Shown here in pieces: positions 50,099 to 55,740 of a stretch of DNA of 64,000 bases. The first letter of the stretch is position 1. Every line of letters begins with the position of its first letter. The notes under the pieces were generated by a model. The model searched no databases, was not told the origin of the DNA, and worked only from the letters and a program-made list of their open reading frames with translations. The stretch covers positions 186,001 to 250,000 of the forward strand of contig NZ_REGA01000002.1 in NCBI RefSeq assembly GCF_003841505.1. Direction: 5' to 3'. Position numbers and translations under genes: made by a program. Source of the DNA: Natrarchaeobius chitinivorans. Its GTDB lineage: Archaea; Halobacteriota; Halobacteria; Halobacteriales; Natrialbaceae.

Positions 50099-51109
50099 TT
50101 ATTTCACGCTATCGTACACCGATGCGGCTGTACGCATTCCCCACGAGCCGTACTCGAGGCTGTAGTAGGTTCGCAGGTCGGGGTTGAACTTCGCCTTGTA
50201 CCGGTTGATTCGGCGGGTGTCGGCACCGACCAGATCGTACGTCTCGAGGCCGGATTCGATCCCGTCTTTCATGATCGCCCAGTCGAGCAAATCGTTCGTC
50301 GGCACGTCGACGTCGGCGTCGGTTCGGACGCCGCCCATCCACCGGCCGGTCCGCCCGCCGTACTCGAGCGCGAGGATGCCGCCGACGAACTCGTCGTCGA
50401 CGCACAGCGTGTACGGGCGGACGTGTCCGTTCTCGGATCGGTCGGCGAGGTCGAGGACGAACTCGAGGGGAACGTCGAATCCGATCCCCTGGGACTCGTA
50501 TCGGTTCGAGACCTGTTCGTGGATCAGCCGGATCTCCTCCGATCCGCCGACGCCGACCTCGTAGGCCTCTTCGTCGGTGTTTCGAACGTTACTCCGTGCG
50601 TCGCTGCTGAAGGTCATCAGGAGATCGTCTTCCGGGAGGGTGAGATCGACCGTGTAGGTGTACTCCGGGTTCGCATCGTATCCGTGCCACGTGAACGGGC
50701 GCGCGTCATCGAACGCCGTCGCCGTTCGGACGTGACCGTACTTCGGGTTCAACTCGTCGTCGATCCACTCGAAACAGCCGTCCATGAACCGTTGGCGTCG
50801 CCGTTCGCGCTTGCGTCGTTTTGGAGACTGATGATCCAGTAACGCCGGGCCGAGATACGGCACGCGAAGGTGTGGCGGCGGCGAGAACACGGTCGTCACG
50901 AACTGCTTTCTGATCTCGAAGACGGGAAAGATTCCGACCGGTTCCTGGCCTTTGAATCCGACCAATGGGTGAAGAGTCGCGTTCGCGTGCTCGGCCTGGA
51001 CCCGAAGCGCTTCGATTTCGTGACACATCGTGCCCTGAGCCGAGCGTCTGACGTACTCGTTCCACTCCGCTAAGTCGTCCTCGGTCGCGCGTCGAACGTC
51101 GATGCTCAT
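50099..51109 (-). CDS. GNAT/FemAB-like peptidyl or aminoacyl transferase
   Basis: A 336-residue protein with the double-GNAT layout seen in FemAB and in haloarchaeal surface-glycan loci. N-terminal domain: VRRATEDDLAEWNEYVRRSA and GIFPVFEIRKQF with LRVPYLGPALLD. The C-terminal domain has YTLCVDDEFVGGILALEYGG, WMGGVRTDADVDVPTNDLLD and the end DLVGADTRRINRYKAKF. In relatives it adds amino acids or acyl groups to lipid-linked sugars. The donor and acceptor cannot be told. It begins 475 bases from the next gene to the right. Confidence 0.77.
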   Translation of the reverse strand: MSIDVRRATEDDLAEWNEYVRRSAQGTMCHEIEALRVQAEHANATLHPLVGFKGQEPVGIFPVFEIRKQFVTTVFSPPPHLRVPYLGPALLDHQSPKRRKRERRRQRFMDGCFEWIDDELNPKYGHVRTATAFDDARPFTWHGYDANPEYTYTVDLTLPEDDLLMTFSSDARSNVRNTDEEAYEVGVGGSEEIRLIHEQVSNRYESQGIGFDVPLEFVLDLADRSENGHVRPYTLCVDDEFVGGILALEYGGRTGRWMGGVRTDADVDVPTNDLLDWAIMKDGIESGLETYDLVGADTRRINRYKAKFNPDLRTYYSLEYGSWGMRTAASVYDSVK

Positions 51110-51375
51110 CGTCGCGCCCCCTCACCCGTCGACCGCTGTCGGTCGGTGTCGGTCTGTTGTACGGTCGTCTGTGGGGGACGTTCGATGGGGCGAACTATCG
51201 TCTCCCGGTCGATGCTTCCGACAGTGTCGGTCGCTCGGCGGCTCATACTGGTCGAGTCGGTTTGGAGCCCCTTTGTAAGCGCCCAGTTTCCGCCGGGTCG
51301 GGCGGACGGCTCCTGCTGGTTACTCTCTCCAACGGTTCGGAACGCACGCAGTCGGCGGCTCGAGCAGATCAGCAA

Positions 51376-51478
51376 GCGGTCACTAGTACCGTTCCAACCG
51401 CCGGCTGACGAGCGAGATCGGCCCACACCGCAGGATTTCGCTCGTCAGTTCGGGTTTGGGATGGCACTGGTGGTCACC
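51376..51478. ncRNA. Long hairpin, possible structured RNA (strand not decided)
   Basis: One extended foldback can be drawn. The inner stem CTGACGAGCGA (51405-51415) pairs with TCGCTCGTCAG (51438-51448) around a 22-base loop. The middle stem AGTACCGTTCCAACC (51385-51399) pairs with GGTTTGGGATGGCACT (51453-51468) with G-U pairs and one bulge. The outer stem GGTCACT pairs with GGTGGTC. The compensating base pairs suggest RNA, not chance. It lies between divergent genes at 51109 and 51585. The minus strand faintly resembles part of 5S rRNA (CCATCCC-AACNCG), but the fold differs. Confidence 0.5.
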
Positions 51479-51584
51479 CTAAACCGGAGATTCCGGTGTC
51501 GACCCCCGCTTCTACCCCAACGTGTGAGTTATGCGATGAGTAACTATGTCCTGAACGATCGAGGAATCGATACCTAGCGTATAG

Positions 51585-52637
51585 ATGAAAGATCGCTCGA
51601 CCCAACCGTTTCAGCCGTTGACGACTGTCCGACAGGGAAGCAAACAGCTCGCCGCTCAAGTGCCGACCGATCTGGGCGGGGTCGCCGCGTTCGTCACCGT
51701 TTCTTTCCTCGTTTTGACCGTGTTAGACACGGGTTCCCCGTTCGTTCGGGTAATCGTCGGCTTTCCCCTCTTACTGTTCGTTCCGGGATATGCGACCGTC
51801 TCCGCACTGTTTCCACGCGCGCCGCCGAACCGAAATCACAGTCCGACTCAGAATGGATCCTTACGTCTCAGCCGGAACAGCGTGACCGTCCTCGAGCGCG
51901 TGGCGCTCGCGTTCGGTCTCAGTCTGGCGGTGCTCCCGCTTCTCGGACTGGTGATCGCCGCTTTCTCCTGGGAGTTTTCGACGCCGGTCGCCGTCACCGT
52001 AGTGTGCGTGTACGCGCTTTCGACCGTCTCGATCGCCGCGATACGGCGATCGCGCGTCCCGGTCGAAGACCGATACCAGTTCAGTCTTACCCGAAGCGCG
52101 AGTACGGTCTACGCGGCAATCTTCGACACCAGAACCACGTTTCACACCGCCATCAACGTAGTGTTGGTGGTCAGTATGCTTCTCGCGCTGACGACGGTCG
52201 GATACGCCCTGGTCTCTCCACAGGACGGCGAGCAGTACTCGAGCCTTCAGGTTCTAACCGAAGACGACTCGGGTGATCTCGTCGCAGACGGCCCCTCACA
52301 GGTCGAACCCGACGAATCGATGGAGTTCGTGATCGGTATCGAAAATCAGGAGGGTGAGGAGACCGAGTACACGGCAGTCGTCCAGGAGCAGTGGATCAAC
52401 GACGGGGAAATCGTCGAACGCCACGAGTTAGACCGAATCGAAACAACCGTAAGCGATGGCGAGACGGTTCACGGCGACCAGAGCGTCACCCCGGTCGCCT
52501 CCGACGGCGACGTTCGAATCGTCGTCCTGTTGTACGAGGGTGAGGTCCCCGACGCGCCGACGACCGCCGACGCGTATCGGTACACCTACTTCTGGACGGA
52601 GATCACCGACGATGACGCAACGACCGACGGTGAGTAA
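51585..52637 (+). CDS. DUF1616 membrane protein (paralogue)
   Basis: A 350-residue relative of the protein at 23185-24192, with the same two parts. Membrane segments include FVTVSFLVLTVLDTG, FPLLLFVPGYATVSALF (the DUF1616 mark) and ALAFGLSLAVLPLLGLVIAA, then a last one near residue 190. The C-terminal beta-rich domain (VEPDESMEFVIGIENQEGEE, VVLLYEGEVPDAP) mirrors the paralogue. Start is the ATG at 51585. It is followed on the same strand by the GT-C-like gene after repeat DNA. Likely part of the envelope polysaccharide cluster. Confidence 0.8.
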   Translation: MKDRSTQPFQPLTTVRQGSKQLAAQVPTDLGGVAAFVTVSFLVLTVLDTGSPFVRVIVGFPLLLFVPGYATVSALFPRAPPNRNHSPTQNGSLRLSRNSVTVLERVALAFGLSLAVLPLLGLVIAAFSWEFSTPVAVTVVCVYALSTVSIAAIRRSRVPVEDRYQFSLTRSASTVYAAIFDTRTTFHTAINVVLVVSMLLALTTVGYALVSPQDGEQYSSLQVLTEDDSGDLVADGPSQVEPDESMEFVIGIENQEGEETEYTAVVQEQWINDGEIVERHELDRIETTVSDGETVHGDQSVTPVASDGDVRIVVLLYEGEVPDAPTTADAYRYTYFWTEITDDDATTDGE

Positions 52638-52750: not shown

Positions 52751-53137
52751 TAGAGCTGGCCACACGGAGGTAGCGCGGTTCGGAGCGTACGCGGTTCGGA
52801 GCGTACGCGGTTCGGAGCGTACGCGGTTCGGAGCGTACGCGGTTCGGAACGAACGAAGTGAGCGAGAACCGCGGAACAGCGAACGGGGAGGAACGACCCG
52901 TGAGCGGAACGAAGTGAGCGAGAACCGCGCAACAGCGAACGGGGAGGAACGACCCGTGAGCGGAACGAAGTGAGCGAGAACCGCGCAACAGCGAACGGGG
53001 AGGAACGACCCGTGAGCGAACGAAGTGAGCGAGAACCGCGGAACGGCGAACGGGGAACGCAGTGACCCGTGAGCGAGTGAAACAAGCGACAACCGCGGAC
53101 GGTGCAATCGGTGTGCAATCGTTTCAGTCGTGACTAT
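52751..53137. mobile_element. MITE-like element, family 1, copy 3, with an internal tandem array
   Basis: On the minus strand it starts ATAGTCACGACTGAAACGAT then TGCACACCGATTGCAC at 53137, matching the ends of the copies at 24402 and 31351. The left end (TTTAGAGCTGGCCACACGG) is badly degraded. Inside lie four to five copies of the 16-bp unit GCGGTTCGGAGCGTAC (52778-52858) and then three to four copies of a 55-56-bp unit (52859-53060) containing GAACGACCCGTGAGC. Confidence 0.65.
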
Positions 53138-55129: not shown

Positions 55130-55130
55130 C

Positions 55131-55740
55131 ATCCTCCATACGGCTCCAGCCGTGGGCTTTCGCCTACGCTATCTGTAATCGTCCGATCCGGTTCGGAACC
55201 TGCTGTGACTGCCCGATCGATGTGTGCTACCGTTCGATGGCTGTTCAGTGGCGTTCCAACCCAGAACGGTTGAGCGAAAATCTGCGGTGGGGTCCCATTT
55301 CCCTCAACAGTCGACGCGTGGAACGGTAGTGAACTACCCTTGCCTACTCAGCCGCTGGTGCGGCTTCCTTGAGGCAGGGGTTTCCTGTTTCAACGACGTT
55401 GTCAGACTGCGTCTGACAGCCTGTCGAGGTTCCCTCGACAAACGCGACTTGCAGACACACAACGAGTGTCCACAGCGGTCGCAGTCTTCACAGGCGTGTC
55501 TTCGGAGTGAACCACTCCTAAGTTGTCGCACGATGTCACGAGTCCAGTCGAGACTCTCACGCTGCTCGATCGTGGGGAAGAGTCGGTATCGTGGACTGTA
55601 CTCCATGCGACTTGCTTTCTACTATCGGTTGGTGTTAGTTGAAAGTTCTGATCAGTGTGATAGAGACTCGTGCGGGCACTGTATCCCCGCCCTACTCGCT
55701 CACTTCGTGTTACTCCGTTCGCTCCTTGAGTACGGGGGCT
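55131..55740 (-). mobile_element. Decayed IS200/IS605-family (IS1341-like) element
   Basis: The right end is a hairpin with AGCCCACGGCTGGAGCCGTA on the minus strand near 55131-55165, the usual haloarchaeal IS200/IS605 end. A remnant of tnpB lies inside. The left end is not clear, but homology stops by about 55740, where the next gene's last codons lie. Confidence 0.65.
55344..55606 (-). pseudogene. tnpB remnant (IS200/IS605 OrfB)
   Basis: The N-terminus MEYSPRYRLFPTIEQRESLD, then WTRDIVRQL, is the standard start of haloarchaeal TnpB. After about 29 residues it jumps to the C-terminal end, which appears in other frames as EDTPVKTATAVDTRCVS and VVETGNPCLKEAAPAAE, just before the stop at 55344. 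About 300 codons of the nuclease core are missing and at least two frameshifts are present, so it is dead. Confidence 0.75.

Follow-up and report, generated by a model that had tools for sequence, protein, structure and literature searches.

The window analysed here, the whole 64,000-nucleotide stretch of Natrarchaeobius chitinivorans DNA, holds a long hairpin at positions 51376-51478. As the first-pass annotation had proposed, it lies in a gap between two divergent genes, and Pfam confirmed both neighbours; the gene on the minus strand (50099-51109) is GNAT/FemAB-like (PF13480), and the gene on the plus strand (51585-52637) carries DUF1616 (PF07760). We also observed tandem arrays (52765-53097) in the interval separating the DUF1616 gene from the gene that follows it; they consist of a 16-bp unit repeated 5.2 times (CGGAGCGTACGCGGTT) followed by a 56-bp unit repeated 3.7 times at 97% match.

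The hairpin forms a long rod on the plus strand, and the three stems originally described for it, an outer stem, a middle stem with G-U pairs and an inner stem of 11 bp, are all present. For the plus strand of 51366-51490 the folding energy is -60.6 kcal/mol, compared with -40.4 +/- 3.3 in shuffled sequences (z -6.2); none of 200 dinucleotide shuffles folds equally well, and the minus strand of the same segment folds too (z -3.0 against shuffles). The extent of about 100 nt was upheld only in part: the conserved unit covers 51383-51470, and the extra outer pairs are made by flanking bases that are not common to other copies.

These other copies are numerous. In a blastn search with a 161-base query, the same genome gave at least 12 more copies, and other genera had copies as well; when aligned the copies share 88 columns, CTAGTACC...GCCACTAG, with nothing in common outside them. 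With a covariance model trained on 24 copies we detected the element, which is short and non-coding, at 63 distinct places in its own genome at a threshold of E<0.005; many matches appear twice as the palindrome matches both strands, and the 63 refers to distinct places. A scan of the same family (Natrialbaceae) with the model found it in 59 of 125 genomes and 20 of 29 genera, several genomes carrying 30-35 copies or more. The element is nearly confined to this one family, as 43 of the 46 positive genomes in a class-wide scan of 391 belong to it. Hosts found by an exact-pattern scan include Natrarchaeobius chitinivorans, Natronolimnohabitans, Salinadaptatus, Natrialba, Halobiforma, Natrinema and Halostagnicola.

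The edges of the element could be fixed because one genome, G017, carries copies that are 100% identical inside and stand at unrelated sites with differing flanks (CTA...TAG, TTA...TAA, TTA...TTA, TAA...TAA and TCA...TCA). From these and from 152 aligned copies, the element is 82 bp long, begins with G and ends with C. The window copy, recognised by blastn and covariance-model matches to the dispersed copies, is palindromic and occupies 51386-51467 on the plus strand. To its left, as with most copies, lies CTA (51383-51385), with the TA of the target duplication, and to its right lies TGG (51468-51470), a decayed form of the TAG found in most copies. The left terminal repeat (GTACCGTTCCAACCGCCGGCTG, 51386-51407, plus strand) resembles the ends of IS630-type insertion sequences, sharing 15-16 of its 22 bases with the left end of the IS at L170 and with the IS ends at L165/L166 described below, and the right terminal repeat (GTGCCATCCCAAACCCGAACTG, 51446-51467, minus strand) is identical to IS ends at 13-14 of 22. 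The arms of the inner stem, as given by the covariation of helix 2, lie at 51404-51419 and 51434-51449, and the loop region at 51420-51433 is unpaired in the family structure (all plus strand). A second copy lies on the minus strand at 55245-55332, its 3-base flanks included (G000:C2:241245-241332; covariance-model score 81 bits, E 1e-16, and blastn). By eye, this second copy (window 55130-55400) appears nested in a remnant resembling IS200/IS605-type ends, with agccgtgggctttcgcc on one side and ggtgcggcttccttgaggcaggggtttc on the other.

The flanks of the 152 unique copies reveal the target site. TA stands on both sides in 121 of them. In a further 12 the two sides carry identical TNA triplets, and a single TNA pair is discordant (permutation p 5e-5 for the concordance). 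Most TA copies have C and G as their outer bases, which makes CTAG or CTNAG the usual target. A 4-bp duplication of CTAG was considered and rejected, since identical copies in G017 are flanked as TTA-G..C-TAA and as TNA-G..C-TNA; the G and the C thus belong to the element, and it is TA or TNA that is duplicated.

Sites lacking the element were found in relatives. At the window locus three congeners (G001, G002 and G003) have kept both flanking genes and have no hairpin between them, and divergence within this gap prevents the empty site from being placed to the base. When one TA is taken out, the joined flanks of a G016 copy (L117) align free of gaps with the relative G124. At the best-scoring copy (L051), the orthologous sites of congeners are empty; their alignment on the side of the gene extends to the insertion point, at which that gene's stop codon appears to be located. 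The queries made of joined flanks covered 5,763 of 7,920 and 3,847 of 4,480 bases, the last sites of each being left out.

In the own genome, a partial transposase gene forms the end of several contigs and stands immediately beside a hairpin, with only CTAG or CTGAG in between. A complete insertion sequence of about 1.2 kb is present in G001 (L170, 821-2047). Its transposase is encoded in two reading frames whose overlap falls on a stretch of seven A, and carries HTH_32/HTH_23 and DDE_3 (PF13358) domains above the Pfam cutoffs, which assigns the IS to the IS630 family. The hairpin has its ends and its target in common with this IS. Over about 22 bp, the ends of L170 and of the related L165/L166 match those of the hairpin; GTACCTTCCCAAGCGTCGAGTG of the L166 IS and GTACCCTCCCAAGCGTCGACTG of the hairpin consensus are identical at 20 of 22 positions. 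The consensus left end agrees with the L165/L166 ends at 17-20 of 22 and the right end more weakly at 13-16 of 22, the background fractions for such matches being inflated as the sampled loci contain the element itself. The own genome has six left ends of the IS, each of them preceded by CTA or CTGA, and four adjoin a hairpin. Within the family the hairpin occurs in 22 of 28 genomes with this transposase clade versus 37 of 97 without it (Fisher p 2e-4, a statistic that ignores the relatedness of the genomes).

The clade was not found at the cutoff in G016, G017, G023 and G133, all of which have many near-identical hairpins, hence a different or since lost transposase must serve there. The IS630 copies examined in G016 and G017 (L156, L174 and L159 groups) were rejected as parent on account of their other ends, CTATAG.. 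or ATACTC... Some further repeats were observed around these elements. A different IS630-type IS with the ends CTATAGTAGGCGTTAGAAG is seen at L156, L162, L168 (G017), L157 and L158, and hairpins in several genomes also adjoin other repeats ending in CTATAG. A much smaller relative of about 40 bp (GTACTCCGACAAGCGTCGACTGCAGGCTTGCCAAAGCAC, L166 441-489) lies between CTAG sites and adjoins an IS630 right end. Another dispersed palindromic repeat of the genus, TACTGTCAGTCCTTACCGGCGCA...GCGCCGGTAAACAGTGACAGTAATCCGTATCA, occurs in the hairpin flanks at L053, L065 and L066 of the own genome and has dozens of matches in G003 and others in further congeners, often near or adjoining the hairpin.

The first-pass annotation had read the mixed pairing of the stems as selection for RNA structure. 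Compensating pairs are indeed present: in the alignment of 24 copies, pairing holds in 88.5% of cells and drops to 27-39% with the partners slid; 15 of 31 pairs have changed on both sides against 7.2 in shuffles. The structure is thus maintained, but the sequences compared are mobile copies at unrelated places and not orthologues of an RNA gene. Conservation extends to two mismatched stretches in the interior (TACC against TGGC, and GTCG against CTGA, as read on the two arms), which makes the two ends of the element distinguishable. Recognition of the ends by a transposase does not by itself account for the covariation of the inner stem, which lies outside the ends presumably bound; possible causes are template switching within the palindrome or a requirement for cruciform DNA.

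The strong fold and the compensatory pairs are what a structured RNA at the window locus would display, either a non-coding RNA gene or a cis-regulatory RNA with a length of about 100 nt, yet we consider this very improbable, as the hairpin is missing from the orthologous gap in all three congeners, copies stand at unrelated sites with base-exact target duplications, and their orientation relative to adjoining genes is unbiased (34 same, 28 opposite). The suspicion that no standard RNA family accounts for the hairpin proved right, Rfam yielding no family at the gathering threshold and only meaningless miRNA matches at E<=10; the likeness to 5S rRNA was not borne out, with no match to a 5S covariance model up to E 10. 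An RNA function of the hairpin is therefore unsupported, and the RNA-gene reading fails; the ends of the hairpin match those of a transposon, the outcome which the first-pass annotation had itself named as refuting. Somewhat less improbable, though still unlikely, is that a mobile element was also recruited as a transcription or mRNA-end signal which shapes the 3' ends of adjoining genes. At 58 of 114 copies an edge coincides exactly with the end of an open frame that is 100 codons or longer, and the in-stop frame is found at 65 sides versus 29 and 40 for the other two frames. However, the T(N)A target includes stop codons, where an insertion is harmless, and this explains the excess; the unbiased orientation speaks against a terminator role, and the window copy sits between divergent genes with no T-run after it. 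The hairpin form and the high copy number also recall REP/BIME- or PATE-like elements, the latter known in Haloquadratum, which would be moved through single-stranded hairpins by an HUH (Y1) transposase of IS200/IS605 type. This we regard as the least probable of the three, since insertion of IS605-type elements and PATEs duplicates no target bases (PMC3119063) while TA or TNA is duplicated here, and the ends of the element match those of an IS630-type DDE insertion sequence.

We are thus quite confident that the hairpin is a non-autonomous MITE of 82 bp, nearly one asymmetric palindrome, which would be cross-mobilised by an IS630-type transposase made elsewhere in the cell. That the window copy is diverged, with TGG rather than TAG on its right, counts against this, as does the covariation of the inner stem. 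The mobilising enzyme would be the transposase of the insertion sequence described above or a close relative of it, and its cut-and-paste chemistry is suggested by analogy with IS630 transposases such as that of ISY100, which cut and paste into TA (PMC2170065). In the cycle that we propose, the IS630-family (Tc1/mariner-like, DDE) transposase would bind both ends of about 22 bp, excise the element and paste it at C-T(N)A-G, and repair would duplicate mostly TA and at times TNA. G being the first base of the element and C the last, CT(N)AG would be rebuilt at each edge and be open to further insertion, which would account for tandem or nested hairpins and for junctions between hairpin and IS; tandem hairpins are present among the copies of the family. 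An insertion in a stop codon would leave a stop in place. TNA duplications are unusual for the IS630 family, and we lean, by a narrow preference, towards an IS630/Tc1-mariner-type system in haloarchaea with a flexible stagger, in which one transposase would give either TA or TNA duplications within C-T(N)A-G and elements ending in G...C would restore both target sites and stop codons.

The closest known case is RUP of Streptococcus pneumoniae, an element of about 107 bp with TA target, ends like those of IS630-Spn1 and about 100 copies, for which a structured transcript has been predicted and a preference for sites in or near IS elements reported (PMC3049150, PMC2229807). Like RUP, the present element is non-coding and about 100 bp long, has IS630-like terminal repeats and a TA target, and is associated with an IS; unlike RUP, it is found in haloarchaea, is a nearly complete palindrome, is GC-rich and also uses 3-bp TNA targets, and we claim no sequence homology between the two. 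The putative parent IS resembles ISY100 and other IS630/Tc1-mariner elements in its DDE_3 and N-terminal HTH domains, its TA target and its split frames. In vitro, ISY100 gave the normal TA duplication at its TA target in 34 of 39 products, and TNA was not reported there (PMC2170065), whereas the hairpin, which lacks a transposase, has TNA on both sides in 12 of 152 copies. Transposase-free mobile repeats are known in haloarchaea as the MITEs, PATEs and SMRs of Haloquadratum walsbyi. The MITEs have their ends and the length of their duplication in common with an IS that serves them in trans, and nesting in other mobile elements is frequent; PATEs have neither terminal inverted repeats nor target duplications, and IS630 is unmentioned in the text of that paper (PMC3119063). 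Correia/NEMIS and ERIC are likewise short palindromic repeats with TA at their termini and a target duplication (PMC2229807), but these are bacterial, and we claim no sequence relation to them. A description of haloarchaeal IS630 MITEs was not found in our literature search, which reached few subscription journals.

The element thereby joins a known kind, the IS630 MITE; less usual are its T(N)A duplications of 2 or 3 bp, the restoration of CTAG at both edges and the frequency of insertions exactly in stop codons. The analysis removes a false non-coding RNA candidate, and it illustrates how misleading covariation can be as the sole evidence if the alignment consists of copies of a palindromic mobile element. 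Where copies go unrecognised, annotation could mistake them for RNA genes or terminators. The 152 unique copies constitute a natural set of insertions on which the target choice of IS630 in archaea could be studied, including the unusual TNA duplications and the frequent harmless insertions in stop codons.
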